Shown here in pieces: positions 45,541 to 60,309 of a stretch of DNA of 64,000 nt (the first letter of the stretch is position 1; every line of letters starts with the position of its first letter). Under the pieces are notes generated by a model. That model was not told the DNA's origin. It made no database searches and saw only the letters and a list, made by a program, of their open reading frames with translations. A program made the translations under genes and the position numbers. Source of the DNA: an uncultured Anaerolineae bacterium (lineage in GTDB: Bacteria > Chloroflexota > Anaerolineae > CG2-30-64-16); contig CAKZKT010000006.1 in assembly GCA_937124585.1 (NCBI GenBank), positions 1-64,000 of the forward strand, written 5' to 3'.

Positions 45541-46959
45541 ATGCCTGCAACTGACACCGATCGCCAGGCGCTTGCCGAGGTCAAGAGCGAATACAAATAC
45601 GGCTGGAGCCAGCCGGAGAACTACGTCTTCAAGGCGCGCAAGGGGCTGGATCACGAGATCATTGATCAGATCAGCGTGATGAAGGGAGAGCCGGAGTGGA
45701 TGCGCAAGCTGCGCCACGACGCGCTCGACATCTTCTTTTCGAAGCCCATTCCCACCTGGGGCGCCGACCTGAGTGGCATTGACTATCAGGACATCTACTA
45801 CTACATCAAGCCGGTGGAGACGCAGGGCCGCAGCTGGGAAGACCTGCCGGCGGACATCAAGGAGACGTTCGACCGGTTGGGCATCCCCGAGGCTGAACGC
45901 AAATTCCTCGCCGGCGCGGGCGCGCAATACGAGAGCGAGGCCGTGTATCACTCCTTGAAACAGGAGTGGGAGCGCCAGGGCGTCATCTTCGTAGACAGCG
46001 ACACCGGCCTGCGCGAATATCCGGAGATCTACAAAGAATTCTTCGGCACCGTGGTGCCTGCCACCGACAACGTCTTCGCGGCCCTGAACACGGCCGCCTG
46101 GTCGGGCGGTTCGTTCGTCTACGTGCCGAAGGGCGTCCATCTCGACATTCCGTTGCAAGCCTACTTCCGCATCAACGCGCAGAGCATGGGCCAGTTCGAG
46201 CGCACCCTCATCATCGTGGATGAAGGCGCCAGCGTGCACTATGTCGAAGGCTGCACCGCGCCGGTCTACTCCACCGATTCGCTGCACAGCGGCGTCATCG
46301 AGATCATCGTGCGCAAGAACGCGCGCTGCCGCTACACGACCATCCAGAACTGGTCCACCAATGTGTACAACCTGGTGACACAGCGCGCGCTGGTGTACGA
46401 GGGCGGCACCATGGAATGGGTGGATGCCAATCTGGGCTCGAAGGTCACCATGAAATACCCGTCGGTCTACATGCTCGGCCCCAACGCGCGCGGCCAGATC
46501 CTCTCGATGGCGTTCGCCGGGCCGGGCCAGCATCTGGACACCGGCGGCAAGCTGGTCCACGCGGCGCCGAACACGTCGAGCCAGCTCATCTCCAAGTCCA
46601 TCAGCAAAGGTGGCGGCCGCGCCTCCTATCGCGGCCTGTTGAAAGTGAGCAAAGGCGCGCATGGGGCCAGGTCGAACGTCGTCTGCGACGCGCTGCTCCT
46701 GGACGAACGGAGCCGCTCCGACACCTATCCGTACATCGAAATTGACGAGGACGATGTCACGGTCGGCCACGAAGCATCGGTCAGCAAGATCGGCGAAGAA
46801 CAGCTCTTCTACCTGATGAGCCGTGGTCTCTCCGAAGACGAGGCCAGCGCCATGATCGTCTCTGGCTTCATCGAGCCGATGGTGAAGGAGCTGCCCATGG
46901 AATACGCCGTCGAAATGAACCGCCTGATCCAACTCCAGATGGAGGGGTCTATTGGGTGA
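45541..46959 (+). CDS. sufB: Fe-S cluster assembly scaffold SufB
   Basis: The 472-residue scaffold subunit on which clusters form together with SufD and SufC. The N-terminal region ([21 protein letters not shown]) and the core [30 protein letters not shown] are diagnostic. The Cys equivalent to the essential one of E. coli SufB is C382 in [44 protein letters not shown] is the conserved C-terminal core. The ATG follows GATAGGAG. It is separated from sufD by a GTAGACAAGG palindrome, an unusual insertion within an otherwise tight operon. Confidence 0.96.
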
Positions 46960-46967
46960 GGAAGGCG

Positions 46968-47049
46968 GCAGGTAGGCAGGTAGACAAGTAGACAAGTAGA
47001 CAAGGAAGGGGCAGTCGAAGTCTCCTTGTTTCCCTGTTTCCTTGTTTCC
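46968..47049. repeat. GTAGACAAGG palindrome, copy 3
   Basis: GGCAGGTAGGCAGGTAGACA and two further AGTAGACA words on the left face CTCCTTGTTTCC and two related CTTGTTTCC words on the right. This copy is less symmetrical than the other two. It occupies most of the 110 base gap between sufB and sufD. Confidence 0.78.
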
Positions 47050-47069
47050 GCATATAACGGAGATCAAAC

Positions 47070-48359
47070 ATGACAGTTCAAATCCTGACAACACCGGTAG
47101 CGGTGCTCGCCGATAAAAAAGACGAACCTGCGTGGATGCTCGATCTGCGCACCAGGGCCTGGCGTTTCTTCGAGGAAATTCCCTGGCCCACCGGCACCGA
47201 GGAGACCTGGCGTCGCACCAAGCTGACCGGCTTCCATTTGGAGGATTACACGCCGCTGGCCGGCGACAACCCATCGGCCGGCCTGCACGAAGAGACGGCC
47301 AAAGCGCTCGCCGAGGTGGAAAGTATCGGCAGCCTGGCCATCGAAGATGGCGTCGCCCGCGTTCGCGAACTCGACCCGGCGCTCAGCCGTCGCGGCGTGA
47401 TCCTCTGCGCCCTGGATGCCGCAGTACGAGAACACCCCGATCTGGTGCAAAAGTACTTCGGCAGCGTCGTCGCAGTTGACGAGAACAAATTCAGCGCGCT
47501 GAACTACGCCCTGTGGAACAGTGGCACGTTCGTCTACGTGCCGCGCAACGTGATCGTAGACAAACCGCTTCAGGTCGTGATCCGTCAAAGCACAGGCAGA
47601 TCGGCCGGCTATCACCACACCATCGTCGTCGCCGAAGAGGGTGCGGCAGTCACCCTGGTCGAGGATTTCCTGGGCGCCGATGAGGGCATGACCGACAGCA
47701 CCGTCGAATTGATCGCCGGCCCCAACAGCCAGCTGCACTACCTGCATCTGCAAAACCTGGCGACCACGGCCTGGAACTTCGGCACCCAGCGCATGCGCCT
47801 GGAGCGCGACGCCACCCTGCGCCATTTCATCGGCTCGTGGGGCAGCCGACTGAGCAAGAACTGGATCAACATGGAGCTGGTAGGCCAGGGGAGCACCGGT
47901 GAACTGCTCGGGCTCTACTTCCCCAGCGGCCGGCAGCACCTCGATCACCACACCAACCAGCTGCACAAGGCGCCGCACGCGACCAGCGACCTGCTCTTCA
48001 AAGGCGCGCTGAAAGACCGGGCGCGCGCCGTCTACCAGGGCTACATCAAGGTATATTCCGGCGCGCAGAAGACCAACGCCTATCAGGCGAACCGCAACCT
48101 AATGCTGAGCAAGCAGGCCCGCGCCGACAGCATCCCGGGCCTGGAGATCGAAGCCGACGACGTGCGCTGCACGCATGGCGCCACCGCCGGCCAGATCCCC
48201 GACGAATACATCTTCTACCTGATGGCGCGCGGCATAGATCGCACCAACGCCGAGCGCATGATCGTGCAGGGCTTCTTCGAGGAGGTGTTGAACCGCATCC
48301 CGGTCGAGGGCGTGCGCAACAAACTCGAGACGGAGATCGCGCGCAAATTGGGGCTGTGA
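47070..48359 (+). CDS. sufD: Fe-S cluster assembly protein SufD
   Basis: The 429-residue partner of SufB in the SufBC2D complex, where it forms the heterodimer interface and takes part in iron entry. It has the shared core [31 protein letters not shown] and the C-terminal region [33 protein letters not shown]; the His matching the important His of E. coli SufD is H369. The start follows AACGGAGATC. It is transcribed with sufB despite the palindrome between them and is followed after 43 bases by a rhodanese gene. Confidence 0.95.
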
Positions 48360-48402
48360 ATCACCAGATCGGCAAGGGAGGAGGTCGGACAGGAGGACTG
48401 CG

Positions 48403-49257
48403 GTGACCGACAAAGGTTATGTTCATTCCGAAAAAGTAGTGACCACGGCCTGGGTAGCTGAGCATCTTACCGATCCAGGCGTGCGCATCGTCGAATCGAA
48501 TGAAGATGTCCTGCTCTACGAGCGCGGACACATTCCGGGCGCAGTGCACATTGACTGGGTGGCCGACCTGAACGACCCGATCACCCGTGACTACCTCAAC
48601 CGGGAGCAGTTCGAGCGGTTGATGGCGCGCCATGGCATCGCCAACGATACCTTCATCGTATTCTACGGCGACAAAAACAACTGGTGGGCATGTTACGCCC
48701 TGTGGGTCTTTGAACTGTTCGGCCACACCAAAACGGCCATCATGGACGGCGGCCGGCTGAAATGGGAGCAGGAAGGCCGCCCCATGACGCGCGATGTGCC
48801 ATCCTATCCGCCGACAACGTATGCGGCGCAGGATCGCGCCGACTACAAGATCCGGGCCTTCCGGGACGATGTGTTGGCCCACATCCGCGCCGGGCGACCT
48901 CTGGTGGATGTGCGCAGCCCGGGCGAGTATACCGGCAAGCTCTACCACATGGAGGGCTACCCGCAGGAAGGCGCGTTGCGCGCCGGCCACATCAAAGGCG
49001 CAGTCAACGTGCCGTGGGCGCGAGCAGCCAACCCGAACGATGGCACCTTCAAGACGGCCGAGGAACTCCGCGCCATCTACGAGAGCGAACAAGGACTGAG
49101 GCCCAGCGACAGCGTCATCGCCTACTGCCGCATCGGCGAACGGTCGAGCCACACCTGGTTTGTGCTCAAATACCTGCTCGGCTACCCCAACGTCCGCAAC
49201 TACGACGGCAGCTGGACGGAATGGGGCAACCTGGTCGGCGTGCCGATCGAACGCTGA
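48403..49257 (+). CDS. Thiosulfate/mercaptopyruvate sulfurtransferase
   Basis: A tandem-rhodanese sulfurtransferase of 284 residues. The inactive first domain covers about 1-140 ([26 protein letters not shown]), and the active second domain has the persulfide Cys242 in [14 protein letters not shown]. Such enzymes move sulfane sulfur from thiosulfate or 3-mercaptopyruvate to acceptors. Its place inside the suf locus suggests it supplies or recycles persulfide sulfur for cluster assembly, which is inference. The start is a GTG at 48403 with a strong AGGAGGAC site. It is the last gene before the second suf promoter. Confidence 0.9.
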
Positions 49258-49270
49258 GGCCCGATCCCAT

Positions 49271-49310
49271 GCTGCGAGTGATGGGCTCCGATCTGCCGGT
49301 CACTCGCAGC
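49271..49310 (+). terminator. Hairpin after the rhodanese gene
   Basis: GCTGCGAGTGA (49271-49281) and TCACTCGCAGC (49300-49310) form a perfect 11 bp stem with an 18 base loop, flanked by a weaker CCGAT/ATCGG pair. It starts 14 bases after the stop. No T-run follows, so termination is possible but uncertain; partial read-through would fit the internal promoter downstream. Confidence 0.35.
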
Positions 49311-49348
49311 CATCGGCGCGCACGGCCGTTTAAGGCTCCCCCTCTGTC

Positions 49349-49377
49349 TTGCAGCCCACTCCCTTCAGCGGTATACT
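49349..49377 (+). promoter_or_regulatory. Internal suf promoter
   Basis: TTGCAG, 17 base spacer, TATACT, placed 24 bases before the GTG of the first scaffold gene. With the hairpin upstream it suggests that the scaffold-sufS half of the locus is also transcribed on its own. No GTTGTCG repeat lies near it, so it may escape SufR control. Confidence 0.6.
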
Positions 49378-49400
49378 TTAGGTAAAAGGAGCACTCCCAG

Positions 49401-49781
49401 GTGGATCGCCAAGCGAAGATTGACTTCATCCTGGATCATTACGAGAACCCGCGGCATCACGGGCCGCTGGCTGATGCCACTGTGGTACAAAAAGGCGGCA
49501 ATCCCGGCTGCGGCGACGTCATCACATTCTATCTGAAGATCACTGACGGTCGGATCAACGATATCGGATTCGAGGGCGATGGCTGCACCATCAGCATGGC
49601 CGCCGCTTCCATGGTGGCCGAGATGTTTGTTGGTAAAACCCTGGCCGAGGTCGAAGCCACCTCACCCGATGTTATCCTCGACCTGCTGGGTCGCGAGATC
49701 GCCGGCACGCGACTGAAATGTGCGCTGTTGGGGCTGAACACGACCAAAGAAGCAGTGCGTCAGTTGCGTCCGACAACGTGA
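49401..49781 (+). CDS. sufU: Fe-S scaffold / sulfur acceptor, IscU/SufU type (copy 1)
   Basis: A 126-residue U-type protein. The three ligand Cys and the Asp are C37-x-D39 (NPGCGDVITF), C62 (GDGCTIS) and C107 (LKCALLGL). It lacks the LPPVK chaperone motif of IscU. In SufU-containing bacteria this protein receives sulfur from SufS at a zinc site. The start is a GTG with GGAG about 10 bases upstream. It differs clearly from the second copy at 51196, and only one copy is usual beside sufS. It lies under its own promoter, before sufS. Confidence 0.88.
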   Translation: MDRQAKIDFILDHYENPRHHGPLADATVVQKGGNPGCGDVITFYLKITDGRINDIGFEGDGCTISMAAASMVAEMFVGKTLAEVEATSPDVILDLLGREIAGTRLKCALLGLNTTKEAVRQLRPTT

Positions 49782-49876
49782 ATGCGACAACGAGCATGAA
49801 CTCTTTCTGTACAGAACGGCGCAAGTCGAAAGCCGACTGTGTTCCAAAATAACGACAACGCCAAAGAGGTGCGGTC

Positions 49877-51145
49877 GTGTCTACACCAACCAGGACCCAA
49901 TCCACCGAACAGCGGCCTCCTGCGCTCAATGTCGAAGCAATTCGGGCCGACTTTCCGATTCTCCAGCGCCGCGTCCACGGCCTGCCGCTCGTCTATCTGG
50001 ACAACGCGGCCACCTCGCAAAAGCCGCGCAGCGTGCTCGACGCGCTGACGCGCTACTACGAGCAGACCAATGCCAACGTCCATCGCGGGGTGCACACGCT
50101 GAGCGAGGAGGCAACCGCCCAATACGAGGCCGCGCGCGCCAAAGTCGCCAGCTTCATCGGCTCCTGTTGCCCGAAAGAGATCATCTGGACGCGCAACGCC
50201 AGCGAGGCAATGAACCTGTTGGCCCAGAGTTGGGGCCGCGCCAACCTGAGGCGCGGGGACCGCGTCCTGCTCACCGAGATGGAGCACCACTCGAACATCG
50301 TGCCGTGGCAGATCCTCTCCGCCGAGCTGGGCTTCGAGATCGCCTACCTGCGTGTTGCCGACGACGGCACACTGATCCTGGACGACTTGCCCCGACTGCT
50401 CGATGGCCGCACAAAGCTGTTCAGCTTCACCTACATGTCGAACGTCCTCGGCACGATCAATCCGGTGGTCGAGTTGACGCGTGCCGCGCACCGGGCCGGC
50501 GCGCTGGTGCACCTGGATGCCTGCCAGGCGGTGCCGCACATGCCCGTGAACGTGACCGAACTGGACATAGATTTCATGTCCTTTTCCGGCCACAAAATGC
50601 TCGGCCCGACCGGCATCGGCGCGCTGTGGGGCCGCCGCGAGCTGTTGAATGTCATGCCGCCATGGATGGGCGGCGGCGATATGATCCGCGAGGTGCATCT
50701 GAGCGGCTTCAAACCCAGCGAACTGCCGTGGAAGTTCGAAGCCGGCACGCCCGCCATCGCGCAGGCCATCGGCCTCGGCGCGGCGGTGGACTATCTGGAA
50801 CGGACCGGCATGGCCGCCATTCATCAGGCCGAACGCGAGCTCATCGCCTACGCGATGGAGCGCCTGGCCACGGTGGAAGGCTTGCGCATCCTGGGCCCGG
50901 CGGCCGATCAACGCGGGGGCCTGGTCAGCTTCGTGTTGGGCGATATCCACCCGCACGACATCGCAGCCGTGCTGGACAACCTGGGCATCGCCATTCGCGC
51001 CGGCCACCATTGCGCGCAGCCGCTGCACGAACGCTATCGCATCCCGGCCAGTGCGCGCGCCAGCTTCTACCTGTACAACACACGTGAAGAGGTGGACTTG
51101 CTGGTGAAGGCGCTCCACAAAGTAGTGGAAATATTCAATTTCTGA
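49877..51145 (+). CDS. sufS: Cysteine desulfurase SufS
   Basis: A 422-residue group II cysteine desulfurase that takes sulfur from cysteine as an enzyme persulfide. PLP binds K240 in SFSGHKMLGPTG, and the active Cys379 lies in the short loop RAGHHCAQPLH. The N-terminus (AIRADFPILQRRVHGLPLVYLDNAATSQKP) is the standard SufS opening. The start is GTG at 49877 after AAAGAGGTG. Downstream by 50 bases is the second scaffold gene. With SufU it feeds sulfur to SufBCD. Confidence 0.95.
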   Translation: MSTPTRTQSTEQRPPALNVEAIRADFPILQRRVHGLPLVYLDNAATSQKPRSVLDALTRYYEQTNANVHRGVHTLSEEATAQYEAARAKVASFIGSCCPKEIIWTRNASEAMNLLAQSWGRANLRRGDRVLLTEMEHHSNIVPWQILSAELGFEIAYLRVADDGTLILDDLPRLLDGRTKLFSFTYMSNVLGTINPVVELTRAAHRAGALVHLDACQAVPHMPVNVTELDIDFMSFSGHKMLGPTGIGALWGRRELLNVMPPWMGGGDMIREVHLSGFKPSELPWKFEAGTPAIAQAIGLGAAVDYLERTGMAAIHQAERELIAYAMERLATVEGLRILGPAADQRGGLVSFVLGDIHPHDIAAVLDNLGIAIRAGHHCAQPLHERYRIPASARASFYLYNTREEVDLLVKALHKVVEIFNF

Positions 51146-51195
51146 TGCGCGTCTGACCAGATGTGACGGTCAGCGCACGACAAAGGGCTATCATC

Positions 51196-51573
51196 ATGGA
51201 TTTGTACGCCGAAGAGATCCTTGATCACTACAAACATCCGCGCCATTTCGGGCATCTCGATCACCCGACGGTCACCTTTCACGATCGCAACCCGCTCTGC
51301 GGCGACGAGATCACGCTGGAGCTGCAGATCGTGGACGACAAGGTGGCCGATGTTGCCTTCACCGGTCACGGCTGCGCCATCAGCCGCGCCGCCGCCTCGA
51401 TGATGTCCGAGGAGATCATCGGCAAGTCGCTGGATGAGCTGAAGCGCTGGAACAAAGACAACATCCTGGATCTGCTCGGCATCGAAGTCGGCCCGGTGCG
51501 CATCAAATGCGCGCTGTTGCCGCTGAAGGCGCTCAAAGCCGCGGTCTGGGGCATGGGAGAGGAAGATGAGTAG
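51196..51573 (+). CDS. sufU: Fe-S scaffold / sulfur acceptor, SufU type (copy 2)
   Basis: A 125-residue U-type protein, paralogue of the one at 49401. Ligands are C35-x-D37 (NPLCGDEITL), C60 (GHGCAIS) and C105 (IKCALLPL). It starts MDLYAEEILDHYKHPRHFG, which is the commonest SufU opening, so this copy is the better candidate for the standard SufS partner. The ATG at 51196 is preferred over a GTG at 51163 because AAAGGG precedes it and the family begins there. Its last eight bases overlap the Rieske gene, so the two are coupled. Confidence 0.9.
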   Translation: MDLYAEEILDHYKHPRHFGHLDHPTVTFHDRNPLCGDEITLELQIVDDKVADVAFTGHGCAISRAAASMMSEEIIGKSLDELKRWNKDNILDLLGIEVGPVRIKCALLPLKALKAAVWGMGEEDE

Positions 51574-51877
51574 GTTCGTCAAAGTCGCCCGCGTGGATGA
51601 GATCCCGCCCAACAGCAAGAAGATCGTCGAAGTGGACGGCGTCGAGATCGTCGTGGTCAACGTGGACGGTGCCTTCTACGCCCTCGAGGACGTCTGCACG
51701 CACGACGGCGGCCCGCTCGGCGAGGGCAGACTGGAAGGCTGCCAGTTGATCTGCCCGCGGCACGGCGCTCGCTTCGATGTGCGCACCGGCGCGGCCCTCA
51801 CCATGCCGGCGGTCGAGCCGGCGCCCACCTACGCCGTGCGCATCCAGGGCAACGACGTCCTGGTGGAATCATATTGA
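51566..51877 (+). CDS. Rieske-type ferredoxin
   Basis: A small soluble [2Fe-2S] Rieske protein of 103 residues. The cluster ligands are C44-x-H46 (DVCTHDG) and C63-x2-H66 (LICPRHGARFDV), the full Rieske pattern, with no membrane anchor or fused oxygenase domain. Similar proteins act as NirD subunits or as ferredoxins for dioxygenases. Here it overlaps sufU and is followed by sufT, so an electron-transfer or cluster-carrier role in Fe-S assembly is likely but inferred. Rieske proteins recur in suf operons of Actinobacteria and Chloroflexota. Confidence 0.9.
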   Translation: MSRFVKVARVDEIPPNSKKIVEVDGVEIVVVNVDGAFYALEDVCTHDGGPLGEGRLEGCQLICPRHGARFDVRTGAALTMPAVEPAPTYAVRIQGNDVLVESY

Positions 51878-51896
51878 ACTATTTGAGGAGCCGATC

Positions 51897-52211
51897 ATGG
51901 CCGTTGCAACTGTCGAAGGTGTGCGCGAAGTCATTCGCCAAAACGTCCACGACCCGGAGATCGGGCTCAACATCGTAGACCTGGGCCTCGTCTATAACAT
52001 TGACATCAAGGATGGGAAGGTTGTAGATATCGAGATGACGCTCACCAGCCCCGGCTGCCCGGTCGGCCCGCAGATCATCCGCGGCGTCCAGACCTATGTC
52101 AACCGGGCGTATCCTGATCTGGAGGCCATCAACATCCATATCGTCTGGTCGCCGCTCTGGAACCCCGATATGATGAGCCAGGCTGCCAAGGATCAGCTTG
52201 GCTTCTTCTGA
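51897..52211 (+). CDS. sufT: MIP18/DUF59 family Fe-S assembly protein SufT
   Basis: A 104-residue single-domain DUF59 protein. Motifs are HDPEIGLNIVDLGLVYNIDI and MTLTSPGCPVGPQI, with the conserved Asp and Cys. SufT-type proteins help mature Fe-S enzymes when demand is high. The ATG at 51897 has GAGGAG upstream, 19 bases after the Rieske stop. It is the last recognised Fe-S gene of the locus; the DUF72 gene follows after 15 bases in the same direction and may be co-transcribed. Confidence 0.9.
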   Translation: MAVATVEGVREVIRQNVHDPEIGLNIVDLGLVYNIDIKDGKVVDIEMTLTSPGCPVGPQIIRGVQTYVNRAYPDLEAINIHIVWSPLWNPDMMSQAAKDQLGFF

Positions 52212-53009: not shown

Positions 53010-53060
53010 TGGCCGCGCGCCGACATCGCAGCCATCGCACATCGCAGAGGAGGACAATCT

Positions 53061-56000
53061 ATGACCACCGCCGCCCGCGCCCGCGGCCACAGCGAATACT
53101 GGACCAGCTTTCTGGGCGCCGACCTCGGCCTGGTTGACCCCGATGTCGAGGCCATCATCGGTTTCGAGGAGGAACGCCAGGCCCGCAAGCTCATCATGAT
53201 CCCGTCCGAATCCATGGCACCCCTGGCTGTCCGCCAGGCGCAGGGCTCTGTCTTCAACAACGTCTACGCGGAAGGCTATCCTCCCCTGCGGATGACGCGT
53301 GACGACGAAGAAACCATCCTTGACTTCGACCACCAGCTCGCCTACTATCGGCGCTATGGCGACCGCCGCTTCTACAAAGGTGTAGATTATGTCCACTTCA
53401 TCGAGACGCTGGCCCAACGCCGCGCTGCCGCTCTCTTCGCCACCGAGCGCGTCGCCGCCAAAGACATTTATGTAAATGTCCAGCCGCTCTCCGGCGCGGC
53501 TGCCAACCTGGCCGCCTACGATGCCCTCGTCGAGGCAGGCGACACCATCATGGGCATGGATCTGTATCAGGGCGGCCACCTCACCCACGGCAGCGCGTTC
53601 AACTTCTCGGGCAAACGCTACCGGGTCGTCAGTTATGGCGTCAGCAAAACAACGGGCCGGCTGGACTACGACGAGATCCGTGACCTGGCGCGCAAGCAAC
53701 GGCCGAAGATGATCATCGCGGGCTTCACCTCATACACCTGGGCGCCCGATTGGGAGGTGTTCGCCGAGATCGCGCACGAGGTGGGCGCCAGGCTGCTGGC
53801 CGACATCAGCCATCCGGCCGGCATGGCGGCCGCCGGCGCCTTCCCCAATCCGATCGGCTATGCCGACGTGATCACCTGCACCACACACAAAACGTTGTGC
53901 GGCCCGCGCGGCGCGATCATCATGACCACCGACGAGGAGCTGGCGCAGCGCATTGACATGGCCGTCTTCCCCGGCGAACAGGGCGGCCCACACCCGCAGA
54001 AATTCGCGGCCATGGCCGTGGCGTTCAAAATCGCCGCGTCCGAGCCGTTCAAGCGCATGATGTGGCGGATCAAAGCCAACGCCGCCGCGCTCGCCGCCGG
54101 CCTGATCCGCCGCGGCCTGGGCCTGGCCTACGGCGGCACCGACACGCATTTCTGCGTGCTGGATCTGAACAGCGTCCACCCGCGTACGGCGCGGGCCGCC
54201 GGGTCCCCCCTGCGCGGAGAACCGGCCGTCCGCATCCTGGATCTGGCCGGCATCGTCGCCAACAAAAACACCATCCCCGGCGACACCCAGACCGCGCTCG
54301 CCATGGGCATCCGGCTGGGCACGCCGTGGCTCACGCAGCGCGGCTTCACCGAGACGGAAATGGATCAAATCGCCGGCCTGATCCACAAAGTGCTCGTGAA
54401 CATCCATCCCTTCTCCTATCAGGGGCTGACCGGCGAACTGCCGCGCGGCAAAATCGAGCTGGACATCCTGGCCGAAGTGCAGGCCGAGGTGGCGGCCCTG
54501 GCCGCACGCGGCGCGGCCGAGACCGAGGATCGCGGCACCGGCTATCCGCATTTCCCGGAAATCATAACGGCCGAGCGGCCGGCCGTCGTTTTGCCGGCCG
54601 CAACGAATCCTCCGCCGTCGGCCACCCCGATCCCCACGACCACATGGCTGCTCGACATCAGTCAGTGCGGCCTGCTGATGATCTCCGGCGAACGCGCCGA
54701 GGCCGGCCTGCAACAGATCGTGACCAACGACGTCCTGGCCCTCGCGCCGGGCACGGCCGGCACCGGTTTCATCCTCGACCCGGATGGCCGGGTGATGGAC
54801 GATGTCTTCGTCATGCGCCTACCCCAGGCGACCGGGGAACCGGCCGCTTTCCTGCTGCGCACCCAACCGGCCAATCATGCGCGCGTCAAAGCATGGCTGC
54901 GCGGCCTGAGCGACGGCTACGTCCTGTTCGACCGGGCCGATATCCTGGCCAAAGTCGAGGGGCCGTTCGTCGTCGAGGATCTGGCCGAATCGGGCCATGC
55001 CGAAGCGTGCAGCGCGCTGGCGCTCCATGGCCCGGCCGCGGCCGACATCGCGGCCGCGCTGAAAGGCGTGCCCGGCATCCAGGCATTCATCGCAAACAAC
55101 CACGTCGAACTCGTCGTCCCGAACGGCCAGGTGCAGACCGTCCGCGAGCTGCTGCTGGCGGCGGGTGCCACGCCGGCCGACCCGACGACACTGGCGGCCC
55201 TGCGTCGGCAGGCTGGTCTGCCCGACTATGCCGCGGATGCGGAGCGACCGACCGGCGCCGACCTGCTGGCGACGACCGCCGCGCGACGCTTCGATCTGCG
55301 CAAGCCCTACTTCGTCGGCCAACAGGTTATGGCTGCAGCCCGTGCCCGGCCTGTCCTGCCGGAATTCACCTGGACAGAGCCCGCGAACGCGGCGCTCAAG
55401 CGCACCCCGCTTTACGCCTGGCACCGGGCACATACGCGCCACATCGTCCCCTTCGCCGGCTGGGAGATGCCCGTCTGGTACACGGGCGTGCTGGACGAGC
55501 ACAACGCCGTCCGTCGCGCGGCCGGCCTGTTCGACGTGGCCCACATGGGGGTCTTCGAGGTGTGCGGTCCACACGCGGTCGAATTCCTCGACCTGGTCTG
55601 CACCAACTACGTGCGCTGGTACGCGCCGGGCGAGAGCTTTTACTCCTATCTCCTCGACCCCGACGGCAAGGTGATTGACGACCTGCTGGTTTATCGTCGC
55701 GGCCGCGATCTATTCCTGCTGGTGGTGAACGCGGCCAACGCCGACAAAGACTGGGCCTGGCTCAACGCGGTGAACAACGGCGAAGTGTTGCTGGATCGCG
55801 AGCGGCCCGATCTGCGCGTGCTGCGGCCGACCACCCTGCGCAACCTGAAAGACCCTGCCGCCGGCCCCGACATGCGCGTCGACCTGGCGCTGCAGGGCCC
55901 GGCCAGCCTTGCCATCCTGCAGAGTCTGGCCGGTGACGGTCGCCTGGCCGACCGGCTGGGCCGGGTGCGCAAGACCGGTCTCATCGAGTGCGAGCTGGCA

Positions 56001-56684
56001 GGCTTCAACCTGATCATCGCACGTACCGGCTATACGGGCGAGGAGGTCGGTTATGAGATCTTCGTCCATCCCGAGCGCGCCATCGCGCTCTGGGAGACGC
56101 TGCTGGAGGCCGGCAAACCGTTCGGCTTGCAGCCGACCGGCCTGGCCGCGCGCGACAGTACTCGCACCGAGGCCGGTCTGCCGCTCTACGGCCACGAGCT
56201 GGCCGGACCGTTCGAAATCTCTCCGGCCGGCGCCGGTTTTCCGGCCTATGTCAAGCTCCACAAGCCCTACTTCATCGGCCGCCGCGCCTGCATCGAGCGC
56301 GAAAAGACGCGCGACATGCAGGTCGTCCGCTTCCGCATGAACGAACGCGGAGTGCGCATGCCCAAGACCGGCGATCCGGTCATCAACAAGAAGGGCCAGG
56401 CCATTGGCTGGGTGACCAGCGCGGCCGTGAATGTGGACGGGATCATCGTGGGGCTGGCCTATGTGAACAGCCGCTATGCCCGGCCCGGCGAGGAGATCGG
56501 CATCTTTGCGCTGCCGCCGAAGCCGCTGATCGAGCGGCCCAACAAGGCCGATCTGGCGCCGGGCGACCGGGTCAGCGTGCCGGACGCGGCGACGCTGTTG
56601 GCGCGCTTCCCCGACCGGGCAGAGCGAGCACACTGGCGCGGCGCCGCGCTTCCCCAGATCACGCCGCCGGCCGCCGCGGAATGA
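53061..56684 (+). CDS. Serine hydroxymethyltransferase / GcvT-like / GcvT fusion
   Basis: A 1207-residue three-part protein. Residues 1 to about 490 are a divergent serine hydroxymethyltransferase: MIPSESMAPLAVRQAQGSV, NVQPLSGAAANLAAY, GGHLTHGSAFNFSGK and the PLP Lys277 in CTTHKTLCGPRG; an extra segment of some 35 residues lies after residue 75. Residues about 515-770 are a GcvT-fold domain (LLDISQCGLLMISGERAEAGLQ; D580-D581 in GRVMDDVFV; K748 in LRKPYFVGQQV). Residues about 778-1170 are a fuller T-protein (FAGWEMPVWYTG; D873-D874 in GKVIDDLLVY; K1068 in LHKPYFIGRRAC). The pieces catalyse or bind serine/glycine and tetrahydrofolate one-carbon units. No gcvH or gcvP is in the window. One continuous frame with no internal start supports a true fusion. 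Confidence 0.88.
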   Translation: MTTAARARGHSEYWTSFLGADLGLVDPDVEAIIGFEEERQARKLIMIPSESMAPLAVRQAQGSVFNNVYAEGYPPLRMTRDDEETILDFDHQLAYYRRYGDRRFYKGVDYVHFIETLAQRRAAALFATERVAAKDIYVNVQPLSGAAANLAAYDALVEAGDTIMGMDLYQGGHLTHGSAFNFSGKRYRVVSYGVSKTTGRLDYDEIRDLARKQRPKMIIAGFTSYTWAPDWEVFAEIAHEVGARLLADISHPAGMAAAGAFPNPIGYADVITCTTHKTLCGPRGAIIMTTDEELAQRIDMAVFPGEQGGPHPQKFAAMAVAFKIAASEPFKRMMWRIKANAAALAAGLIRRGLGLAYGGTDTHFCVLDLNSVHPRTARAAGSPLRGEPAVRILDLAGIVANKNTIPGDTQTALAMGIRLGTPWLTQRGFTETEMDQIAGLIHKVLVNIHPFSYQGLTGELPRGKIELDILAEVQAEVAALAARGAAETEDRGTGYPHFPEIITAERPAVVLPAATNPPPSATPIPTTTWLLDISQCGLLMISGERAEAGLQQIVTNDVLALAPGTAGTGFILDPDGRVMDDVFVMRLPQATGEPAAFLLRTQPANHARVKAWLRGLSDGYVLFDRADILAKVEGPFVVEDLAESGHAEACSALALHGPAAADIAAALKGVPGIQAFIANNHVELVVPNGQVQTVRELLLAAGATPADPTTLAALRRQAGLPDYAADAERPTGADLLATTAARRFDLRKPYFVGQQVMAAARARPVLPEFTWTEPANAALKRTPLYAWHRAHTRHIVPFAGWEMPVWYTGVLDEHNAVRRAAGLFDVAHMGVFEVCGPHAVEFLDLVCTNYVRWYAPGESFYSYLLDPDGKVIDDLLVYRRGRDLFLLVVNAANADKDWAWLNAVNNGEVLLDRERPDLRVLRPTTLRNLKDPAAGPDMRVDLALQGPASLAILQSLAGDGRLADRLGRVRKTGLIECELAGFNLIIARTGYTGEEVGYEIFVHPERAIALWETLLEAGKPFGLQPTGLAARDSTRTEAGLPLYGHELAGPFEISPAGAGFPAYVKLHKPYFIGRRACIEREKTRDMQVVRFRMNERGVRMPKTGDPVINKKGQAIGWVTSAAVNVDGIIVGLAYVNSRYARPGEEIGIFALPPKPLIERPNKADLAPGDRVSVPDAATLLARFPDRAERAHWRGAALPQITPPAAAE

Positions 56685-56873
56685 ATCAGAGCCGGCCACC
56701 GCGAACGGACACGACGATATGCATTTTTGCCGTCGGCGGCCAGCCCTCCGCTCTGGCCGGTCTCTGGCCAAGCCGATGATGGCGGATCTGGTACCGCAAC
56801 TTTTCATGCGTTTCGAGCGTCTACACAGTCGGAGCCAACGCCACCCTACCAGATCAGACGACCGGGGAAACAG

Positions 56874-59082
56874 ATGTCGGAACAGACAACGGTCACAATA
56901 GCGGAGACACCGCACAAGCCCAGAGGTCACAGCGCGCGGCTGCCCTATCTGCCTGCCCTGGACGGCCTGCGCGCGCTTGCCGTCATCGCGGTGCTCTTCT
57001 ACCATGCCGGCCAGCACTGGATGCCGGGCGGCTTCCTCGGCGTGGAGATCTTCTTCACGATCAGTGGCTACCTGATCGCCTCTCTCCTGCTGTCGGAGTG
57101 GCGTGAAACGGGCCGGATCGCGCTGAAATACTTCTGGTTGCGCCGCGCCCGTCGCCTTTTGCCAGCGCTCTTCGCGGTCATCGTCGGCGTACTGGCTTAC
57201 GCCGTGATCTTCTTGCCCGAGGAAGTTGCCAGTCTGCGCAGCGACGCGCTGGCGGCCTTCGGCTACTCCACCAACTGGTACCTGATCTTCAGCAACAAGT
57301 CCTATTTCGAAACGGTCGGCCGACCCTCCATGCTGCGCCATCTCTGGTCGCTGGCCGTGGAGGAGCAGTTCTACATCATCTGGCCGTTGGCATTTGTGTT
57401 CGCCATGCGGCGCTGGCGCGAACGCTCGGTGCTGGCCGGCGTGATCGTCGTGGCGCTGGCCTCGGCCATCCTGATGGGGATGCTCTATCAGCCAGACATA
57501 GACCCATCGCGCGTCTACTACGGCACCGACACGCGTGCGGCGGGCATCCTGATCGGCGTCGCGCTGGCATTCGTATGGTCGCCGGGCCGTAGCGATGGCA
57601 TCGGCGCCAGGCTGCCGCTGAGCCTGATCGGCTTCGCCGCGCTGGCCGCGCTCGGCTTCTTCTGCGTGTGGATGACCGAGTTCGCGGCGTTCCTCTATCG
57701 CGGCGGCTTCACTCTGGTGGGACTGAGCACCGCGCTCCTGACCGCGGCCTCGGTGCACCGCAAGGGCCGCGTGCTCCAGGCTGTGCTCGGCTGTTCGGTG
57801 CTGCGCTGGATCGGACTGCGCTCCTATGGCATCTATCTGTGGCATTGGCCGGTCTTCATGCTCACCCGGCCCCAGCTCGACACGACGCTGGACGGCCTGC
57901 CCCTGCTGGCGCTCCGCTTCGGCCTCACCCTGATCCTGGCCGAGCTTTCCTATCGGATCGTGGAAACACCGATCCGCTCCGGCGCCATCGAGCAGGCATG
58001 GGCGGCGCTGCAACACGCGCAGGGCCGCCCACGCCGCCGGTTGATCTTCCGTTGGGCCAGCGCGCTGACCGTGATCTTGACCTTCTCGGTCGCCCTGGGC
58101 GCCTGCGTCGTGCGCGCGCAGCTGCCACCTCCACCTGCCTATCTCATCGTTGACTCTGCCCCGGCAGAAGCGCCGTCGCAGGCTCCCGTCAACGAAGAAG
58201 GCAGCCGGCCGCCTCAGCCCGCGGCGACCGACCTGCCGGCCGCGTCCCAGACGGCGAGCGAGGTCTCATCGACGCTCGAACCGACCGTCACTGCGACTGA
58301 CCAACCCGCGCCGGAGCCGACCGCACTTCTGGCGACGGGCAGCCCTGCGCCGGAAGCGAGCGAGGCAAATGTCACCGAGACGCCGACACCCATCGCGATT
58401 GCTCAGCCCACCACGATGGCCACGCCCGATCTGGCGCGGCTGACCATCACGCCTGCATCTGAGGACGTAGCGCGCCGCCTCACCGAACAGCCGGCCACAG
58501 CGGCCATCACCACGCCGACGGCGACCGCCGTCGTGAGCCCCACGACAACGCCGCCGGCAGTCCTCTTCCCATCCATCACCATCTCGATCACTGCATTGGG
58601 CGATTCGGTGATGCGGGGCGCTGCCCGCACCCTCCAAGAGGCCTTTCCCCGGATCGAGGTAGACGCGGAGACGGGACGTCAGGTCTATCGGCCGCCGGTT
58701 GATCTGCTGGTGGCGCAGCTACAGGAAGGAGTGACGAGCGGTCGGCTCGGCGAGGTGATCGTGCTCCACCTGGGCAACAACGGTGTATTTCCGCGCGAAA
58801 GCTTCGACAGGATTCTGGGAACGCTGGCCGACAGGCGGCTGGTGATCGTCTTCGGCGTGCGCGTGCCGCGGGCGTGGGAGGACAACAACAATCGGGTCAT
58901 CGCGGAGGGCGTGAAGCGCTATCCGAACGCCGTGCTGGTTGGACTGGTACGCGCTCACCGCCAAACGGCCGGAGCTGTTCTGGAACGATGGGCATCATCT
59001 GCAGCCAGAGGGCGCGCGCTACTATGCCGAGCTGATCGCCCAGGCCATCGAGGCGAACCGCGAACGATTGACGCAGCCGTGA
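56874..59082 (+). pseudogene. Acyltransferase 3 (OafA-like) with SGNH domain, frameshifted
   Basis: A membrane O-acyltransferase that should acetylate a cell-surface glycan. Residues 25 to about 400 hold the acyltransferase 3 domain (LPALDGLRALAVIAVLFYHAG with the catalytic His; SLAVEEQFYIIWPL) with about ten helices. A Pro/Thr-rich stalk (about 430-565) leads to an extracytoplasmic SGNH domain with G576-D577-S578. After about residue 689 the frame leaves the conserved sequence: skipping one G at 58941-58942 restores VLV-DWYALTAKRPELFWNDG and HHLQPEGARYYAEL, including the catalytic Asp and His, ending at TGA 59082. Uncorrected, the frame runs on to 59258 through a terminator and into the convergent gene. 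The protein is real; the shift is either mutation or sequence error. Confidence 0.85.
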
Positions 59083-59106
59083 AGCCCGGGCGGCCCGAAA
59101 ATCAGA

Positions 59107-59138
59107 CGGCCCGGTCAGCGCGACCGGGCCGATCTTTT
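59107..59138 (+). terminator. Intrinsic terminator after the acyltransferase gene
   Basis: CGGCCCGGTC (59107-59116) and GACCGGGCCG (59122-59131) form a perfect 10 bp stem with a 5 base loop, followed by ATCTTTT. It lies 24 bases after the frame-corrected stop but inside the uncorrected reading frame, which supports the corrected end. Confidence 0.75.
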
Positions 59139-59184
59139 GCCGGATCGTTCGCCGACACCCCATCCGCCGGCGCCATAGCGGGCG

Positions 59185-60309
59185 CTATTGGCCCTGGGCG
59201 GCCTGGCTTGCGGCGTCGAGGATCAACAGCGCCGAAAGGTCTGCCAGCGGGCCGATGAACCGGATCGCCTTCGCAATGGTGTAATCGTTCACCCCGCCTT
59301 CCACCAGATGAAGGCCGTCAGGCTGCAATCCCCGGCCCGGCACCGTCTCGGCCAGCAGGTCGAAATCCCACAACGGGATGCGATACTCGGCTGCCAGCCG
59401 ACGGATCATCTGGTTGATGGTATTCTCCGGCCCCTCGTAGTGATCGGGCTTTGTCCCCACGATGGGCACCACGCCCTGGCCGATGCAGGTCTCGAAGATA
59501 CGTCGCATCGCCGGCTCGAATTGGCCCGGCGTCAGACTGTCGTTCGCGCCCAGGCGAATGAGGGCAAAGCTGGCGTTCGTGATGCGCAGCTCGCAGGTCA
59601 GCGGGCCCTCGCCGGACAGGCAGAACGCCGGATCCGCCTGTGCTGGATCAAGCTGATCCCAACTGTGCATGCCCTTACGCACAGCCAGGCTCTCGCGCGC
59701 AAAAAAGCCCGCAAAACGGGTGATCGTCCGCTGGAGCGGGGCGAAATTGCCGAGCCAGTAGTTTCCCCAATCGAAACTCGCGAGAAAGATCGGCCAGAGC
59801 ATCGTGCTGTCGCCGACTTTGGCGAAGGCGCGCGGATTGCGGCCCGCCGCCTGGCCGCGCGCGTAGATTTCGCGCACATGCTGCCCGACGTCGTCCGGCA
59901 TCACGATGACCATCTCCAGAGGCAGGCCGTTCAGGAGCGGCGGCAGACCGCCGTCCGGCAGAGGCGTCACAGTGGGCAGAACCGCCGTCCGCCGCAGCGC
60001 GATCGCCGGCGTCGCAGCCGCAGGACCGGTCGGCGCAGGGGTCGGCGTTCCGATCACCGGGATCGTGGCCAAAACAGCCTCGGTCGTGGCCCTGGCTGCG
60101 GCCGCCTGGGTGGCCCGCACGTTGTTCTGCACTCCCCGGTCGGCAGCGGTGGTCGCCGAGATGTTCGGCGTTGCCTGGCTGCGGTCGGCCCACGGGCTGG
60201 CGCCGAACACGCCGAGCGCCTGCACCACCAGCACCACGCCGATGATCATCGCGGCGACGATCAACAGTTTATAATGGCATTCACGGTTCCATCTACCACA
60301 TGGGTTCAT
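59185..60309 (-). CDS. Membrane-anchored SGNH/GDSL hydrolase
   Basis: A 374-residue protein with an N-terminal membrane anchor (about 14-33, LLIVAAMIIGVVLVVQALG), an Ala/Thr/Pro-rich tether (to about 115) and an SGNH hydrolase domain outside. Catalytic blocks are KVGDSTMLWP (Ser), LIRLGANDSL (Asn) and LQPDGLHLVEGG (Asp and His). Such domains remove or transfer acyl groups on polysaccharides or lipids. The ATG at 60309 lies seven bases after the stop of the lyase-like gene, so it is the last gene of a minus-strand operon. It is convergent with the acyltransferase that also carries an SGNH domain, so both may act on the same surface polymer. Confidence 0.85.
   Translation of the reverse strand: MNPCGRWNRECHYKLLIVAAMIIGVVLVVQALGVFGASPWADRSQATPNISATTAADRGVQNNVRATQAAAARATTEAVLATIPVIGTPTPAPTGPAAATPAIALRRTAVLPTVTPLPDGGLPPLLNGLPLEMVIVMPDDVGQHVREIYARGQAAGRNPRAFAKVGDSTMLWPIFLASFDWGNYWLGNFAPLQRTITRFAGFFARESLAVRKGMHSWDQLDPAQADPAFCLSGEGPLTCELRITNASFALIRLGANDSLTPGQFEPAMRRIFETCIGQGVVPIVGTKPDHYEGPENTINQMIRRLAAEYRIPLWDFDLLAETVPGRGLQPDGLHLVEGGVNDYTIAKAIRFIGPLADLSALLILDAASQAAQGQ

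Follow-up and report, generated by a model that had tools for sequence, protein, structure and literature searches.

A fused SHMT–GcvT-like–GcvT protein of Anaerolineae, a probable bifunctional serine hydroxymethyltransferase and glycine-cleavage T-protein

Introduction

Serine hydroxymethyltransferase (SHMT) and the T-protein (GcvT) share methylene-tetrahydrofolate (methylene-THF) wherever a glycine cleavage system exists, and they are normally separate proteins, an arrangement in which direct folate passage from one to the other is hard to test. A stretch of 64,000 nucleotides from an uncultured Anaerolineae bacterium (the window), on contig C6 of a draft assembly (4.83 Mb, 164 contigs, 99.8 % complete), carries a gene in which SHMT is joined to two GcvT-fold domains, and this raises the question of whether the fusion is genuine, how it arose and what its product does. 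Our literature search found no paper describing an SHMT–GcvT fusion; such a protein may be mentioned in automatically generated database annotation or in subscription papers.

Results

A single frame encodes three domains

As read from the sequence, positions 53061–56684 of the plus strand form a single open frame of 1207 amino acids, which starts at the ATG at 53061, is preceded by an in-frame stop and has its own stop codon ending at 56684. The preliminary description had proposed this frame and had named Lys277 (within TTHKT), Asp-Asp pairs at 580–581 and 873–874, and KPYF motifs at 748 and 1068; the coordinates, the start, the stop and all of the residues proved exact. Comparison of the whole protein with Pfam returned SHMT (E 1.8e-112) and two stretches of GCV_T, and the middle GCV_T match, at 1.6e-19 when scanned alone, was far above chance, in agreement with the earlier assignment of one SHMT and two GcvT-fold domains. 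The features are as follows.

53047–53053, plus strand: strong ribosome-binding site GAGGAGG, 7 bases 5' of the ATG, read directly
53061–56684, plus strand: fused SHMT–GcvT-like–GcvT gene, 1207 amino acids, its frame shared by tens of other genomes
53061–54530, plus strand: SHMT domain, residues 1–490 including the C-terminal helix (PF00464 E 7.3e-114; NF000586 above cut-off; model)
53286–53363, plus strand: 26-residue insertion, about residues 76–101, flanked by the active-site segments YAEGYP and RRFYKG (alignment)
53889–53891, plus strand: PLP lysine K277, equivalent to K226 of Bacillus stearothermophilus SHMT, in 47/47 fusion-type sequences
54642–55370, plus strand: middle, degenerate GcvT-fold domain, about residues 528–770 (PF01571 1.6e-19 scanned alone; model)
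54798–54803, plus strand: middle-domain Asp-Asp 580–581, equivalent to D97–D98 of Escherichia coli T-protein (alignment)
54894–54965, plus strand: conserved motif specific to the middle domain, WLRGLSDGYVLFDRADILAKVEGP, residues 612–635 (alignment of 24 full middle domains)
55302–55313, plus strand: KPYF 748–751, closing the middle domain (F.L.KPYFVGQ conserved)
55386–56684, plus strand: complete C-terminal GcvT, residues 776–1207 (PF01571 6.9e-72; TIGR00528)
55677–55682, plus strand: catalytic-type Asp-Asp 873–874 of the C-terminal GcvT, in 47/47 sequences
56322–56504, plus strand: GcvT C-terminal barrel (PF08669 26.1 bits, cut-off 25.9, scanned alone)

An assembly error that fused neighbouring glyA and gcvT genes might be suspected in a draft of 164 contigs. 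However, the same architecture was found, at about 45–77 % identity, in many independent assemblies, among them the single-contig genomes G009, G026, G198, G238, G319 and G411, and since independent assemblies share it, an artefact has a negligible probability.

The two ends retain the signatures of SHMT and T-protein

The N-terminal domain reached 413.2 bits with NF000586 (cut-off 335) and 376.3 with PF00464 (cut-off 27), and its model matched E. coli SHMT (1dfo) with a TM score of 0.94 by target. The catalytic residues K226, H122, D197, H200, R357, Y51, E53 and Y61 (B. stearothermophilus numbering) were retained, where covered, in 45–47 of the 47 sequences. The domain shares with GlyA (PF00464; NF000586) the full fold and the catalytic residues, but differs from it by the 26-residue insertion between YAEGYP and RRYYGG, by a Gly-to-Lys change within YYGG and by the GcvT-like extension at its C-terminal side, and it belongs to a clade apart from canonical GlyA with 100 % support. 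The insertion, which had been proposed to follow residue 75, is real: it is exactly 26 residues long in every fusion and split SHMT in which the stretch is complete (two sequences are truncated there), while the alignment shows none in canonical SHMT. It lies between the segments that bear Y51/E53 and Y60/Y61 in the B. stearothermophilus enzyme and is helical in the predicted full-length model. Borrowing from a divergent long SHMT type was considered and rejected, as the long SHMT of genome G012 lacks the insertion.

At the other end, the equivalog cut-off of TIGR00528 (235.85) was exceeded by both the whole protein (305.5 bits) and the C-terminal domain alone (265.6 bits). This domain has the N-terminal region of GcvT and keeps nearly all of the invariant positions (DD, N114, TGYTGE, R224 and R228) in 47 sequences, with Asp-Asp 873–874 aligning with D97 of the E. 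coli T-protein, the residue altered in the mutant ETD97N (PDB 3a8k). The resemblance to GcvT extends to the presence of gcvH and gcvP in the genome; the difference is that here the domain follows SHMT and a second GcvT fold, itself degenerate, and lies outside the gcvH-gcvPA-gcvPB operon. Sequence comparison thus establishes the identity and the catalytic residues of both terminal domains.

The preliminary description had also suggested that the protein might demethylate sarcosine, dimethylglycine or a similar donor, passing the methyl group to THF, from which SHMT would then make serine. Enzymes of that kind exist among GcvT-fold proteins, and the soxA and TMAO-demethylase profiles match the fusion weakly, but the scores fell far below the cut-offs for soxA (170.6 against 1164) and DMSP demethylase (65.8 against 410), while that for GcvT was passed. 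The fusion has no FAD amine-oxidase domain and stays below the family cut-off of the sarcosine and dimethylglycine oxidases, and it is the sole GcvT in genomes with gcvP and gcvH. Dimethylglycine oxidase/dehydrogenase and the sarcosine oxidase alpha subunit (1pj5, 3gsi, 1vrq) likewise fuse a GcvT-fold folate domain to an enzyme that shares its one-carbon unit, but their partner is an FAD amine oxidase, whereas here it is a PLP-dependent SHMT accompanied by a second GcvT fold. A demethylase is consequently a very improbable reading of the gene.

The middle domain is a degenerate GcvT fold with its own conserved motifs

The middle domain lacks about the first 40 residues and the TGYTGE of GcvT, and it scored 48.0 bits with TIGR00528, well under the cut-off of 235.85. 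Since action on the H-protein reportedly requires the N-terminal region of the T-protein (PMC7733448), the loss of that region makes it unlikely, as judged from the sequence, that this domain is an aminomethyltransferase and thus a second working T-protein. Even so, D97 is retained in 21/24 middle domains, and D98 and R228 in 23/24 each. The 612–635 motif has the consensus WLRxLSDGYxLFDxxDxxxKVxGP, with R, D, Y, D, K, G and P invariant in all 24 full middle domains, and is recognisable also in fusions with half a middle domain and in split SHMTs; a second conserved stretch, F.L.KPYFVGQ, has HKSYWIGQ as its counterpart in a short-middle paralogue. The model of the domain (pLDDT 92) found its best PDB matches among T-proteins. 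Its dN/dS was about 0.1–0.4, as compared with about 0.02–0.2 for the other domains, and its dN was mostly 2–5 times that of the catalytic domains.

For all 24 middle domains, profiles of the fusion GcvT outscored canonical GcvT, by a median of 37 bits, or 17 bits when only the GcvT of the other clade was used. The comparison favours an origin by internal duplication of the GcvT fold.

A SUF cluster lies upstream in the window (45541–52211), comprising sufB, sufD, a rhodanese gene, two NifU-like genes flanking sufS, and FeS_assembly_P; its synteny with the fusion is retained in near relatives only. On the other side, at 56727–59258, is an ORF for an acyltransferase; from about 58950 its SGNH-like end seems to run on in a different frame, an apparent frameshift. 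The SUF genes prompted us to consider whether the middle domain has an Fe-S role like that of YgfZ; it resembles YgfZ/Iba57 (1nrk, 6qe3) in being a GcvT fold without the aminomethyltransferase signature. YgfZ/Iba57 proteins carry the motif K-G-C-[FY]-x-G-Q-E. The middle domain has KPYFVGQQ instead, with no Cys, matches GcvT better, and had no YgfZ profile among its matches; as both motif and score fail, and as the SUF block adjoins the gene in near relatives only, this role was rejected. The domain is probably either a structural module, which would act as a rigid spacer, or one for docking or folate handling.

The fusion is widespread in the class and arose once

The full architecture, whose extent the preliminary description had left to a search, occurs in dozens of genomes of the class Anaerolineae. 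Among 300 genomes of the phylum, a fusion-type match (best E <= 1e-120) was obtained in 43/47 genomes of the same class and in 24/253 others. Among 71 genomes of the class, each at least 95 % complete, 42 had a fusion-type SHMT (split in three) and 34 a canonical stand-alone GlyA; both were present in five (G014, G027, G059, G077 and G132) and neither in none. Fusion-type SHMT and stand-alone GlyA are almost mutually exclusive in the class (Fisher test 4e-15, indicative only, the genomes being related), so that the fusion has replaced the stand-alone gene in much of it. In G001, G005, G007, G009, G016 and G079, all SHMT and GcvT matches fell within the fusion and gcvP and gcvH were present, while fusion-less genomes (G010, G013, G015 and G019) had gcvT near gcvP instead.

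In trees of the SHMT domain and of the GcvT domain, which were quick searches with few canonical outgroups, fusion and split sequences formed one clade against the canonical ones, with support of 100 in each, establishing a single origin. The split genes formed one group nested within the fused ones (support 99), which indicates that the split form is a later fission; relatives are therefore not always split, as they would be if the joined frame were an error. One fusion and one later fission would explain the data. A split, pre-fusion state as the ancestral one was rejected, since both trees nest the split genes inside the fused ones with a single change. In G155 the gene seems to be split too, but an unknown base (X) marks the break, and an assembly gap is the best reading of it. 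Record L018, labelled Candidatus Kuenenia, carries a deep-branching fusion that is basal, or nearly so, in the fusion clade. Its contig has a G+C content of 62 %, which is unlike Kuenenia and makes the label doubtful; the contig is probably mislabelled or mis-binned.

Glycine cleavage genes and riboswitches in the genomes

The preliminary description had stated that the H-protein is not here, which holds for the window but not for the genome, where gcvH and gcvP are both present. The check for separate genes that it proposed turned up gcvH, gcvP and a stand-alone gcvT; no canonical glyA was found in the genome. A gcvH-gcvPA-gcvPB operon without gcvT lies on contig C108, and since the genome thus has gcvH and gcvP, the T-protein role of the fusion would be the ordinary one. 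Contig C147 carries a second fusion paralogue (L002, 1077 amino acids) in which about half of the middle domain remains and the Asp-Asp pair is lost; a similar second, shorter copy occurs in five further genomes of the same family. On contig C127 (L110:5140–9391), a stand-alone gcvT-gcvH pair, lacking gcvP, is followed by genes for a GlcD-like FAD oxidase and for a CCG/4Fe-4S protein; the set may be a separate aminomethyl or glycolate-linked system. Given the second paralogue and the stand-alone GcvT beside gcvH, the copy in the window need not be the main T-protein in this organism.

Elsewhere, the fusion is convergent with nearby gcvPB-gcvPA-gcvH in G016, G079 and G143 and precedes gcvH in G132, which links it to glycine cleavage at the level of the genome. 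Tandem glycine riboswitch aptamers lie directly 5' of gcvH-gcvPA-gcvPB on C108 (L111:7232–7445, minus strand), where a listed 158-residue ORF that overlaps them is probably spurious; a glycine riboswitch also precedes gcvH-gcvPA-gcvPB in G143 and the fusion and gcvH cluster in G132. In three genomes of one sub-lineage, G213, G133 and G242, a ZMP/ZTP riboswitch stands 5' of the operon of split SHMT and GcvT genes (L106:2128–2213, L107:1862–1947 and L108:1751–1836). ZTP riboswitches sense 10-formyl-THF shortage and typically turn on folate genes (PMC9481103). Directly upstream of the fusion gene in the window, no riboswitch was found.

Discussion

Taken together, sequence and genomic context support well the reading of the fusion as a bifunctional SHMT and glycine-cleavage T-protein that carries a degenerate third domain, and we give this reading a probability of about 0.87; the three-part layout with intact catalytic residues and the link to the serine-glycine cycle, both put forward in the preliminary description, are borne out. 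The two activities themselves we infer from the conserved residues. The N-terminal PLP domain would interconvert serine plus THF and glycine plus 5,10-methylene-THF, the separately encoded GcvPA/PB would load the lipoyl H-protein with an aminomethyl group, and the C-terminal domain would transfer this group from the H-protein to THF, giving methylene-THF and ammonia. As both halves would use the THF/methylene-THF pair, one polypeptide would join the two steps of the reaction 2 glycine <-> serine + CO2 + NH3, whichever way it runs. Against the bifunctional reading stand the second paralogue and stand-alone GcvT beside gcvH in this genome, the canonical GlyA retained in five fusion genomes, and the split sub-lineage, which dispenses with covalent linkage.

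If the protein is bifunctional, its two ends may be tethered but independent, the fusion serving co-expression and stoichiometry only, with an inert middle spacer and freely diffusing folate. We consider the chances of this to be even. Fission was tolerated in one sub-lineage, and the middle domain, short in several lineages, evolves faster than the catalytic domains, yet it is kept in frame, under purifying selection and with invariant motifs of its own, and the full model (residues 9–1200; pLDDT 89, pTM 0.87), which is consistent with a defined domain arrangement, suggests a fixed assembly rather than loose beads.

Alternatively, the middle domain and the 26-residue insertion might form a path or docking surface for THF/methylene-THF between the two sites. 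Direct transfer is plausible and only suggested by the data: the Asp pair and R228 persist in most middle domains despite the loss of TGYTGE, the LSDGYxxFDxxDxxxKVxGP motif is specific to the fusion, the insertion in the SHMT active-site segment is of invariant length in split forms too, and the fold matches include dimethylglycine oxidase, a GcvT fusion that channels folate. The loss of Asp-Asp in the short-middle paralogue of the same genome argues against it, and we regard such a hand-over as tentative, clearly behind simple tethering. That the degenerate domain and the insertion evolved as a dedicated methylene-THF relay is a slightly bolder and somewhat more doubtful proposal; if true, glycine would be converted to serine on one polypeptide without free methylene-THF.

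For the class, these results describe an old natural fusion that replaced stand-alone glyA across much of Anaerolineae, and gcvT too in several genomes. They also explain an annotation trap, as genomes with the fusion can appear to lack glyA and gcvT. Naturally shortened and naturally split versions are available for comparison, which makes folate hand-over between SHMT and T-protein testable, and the protein may be of interest to builders of the reductive glycine pathway.
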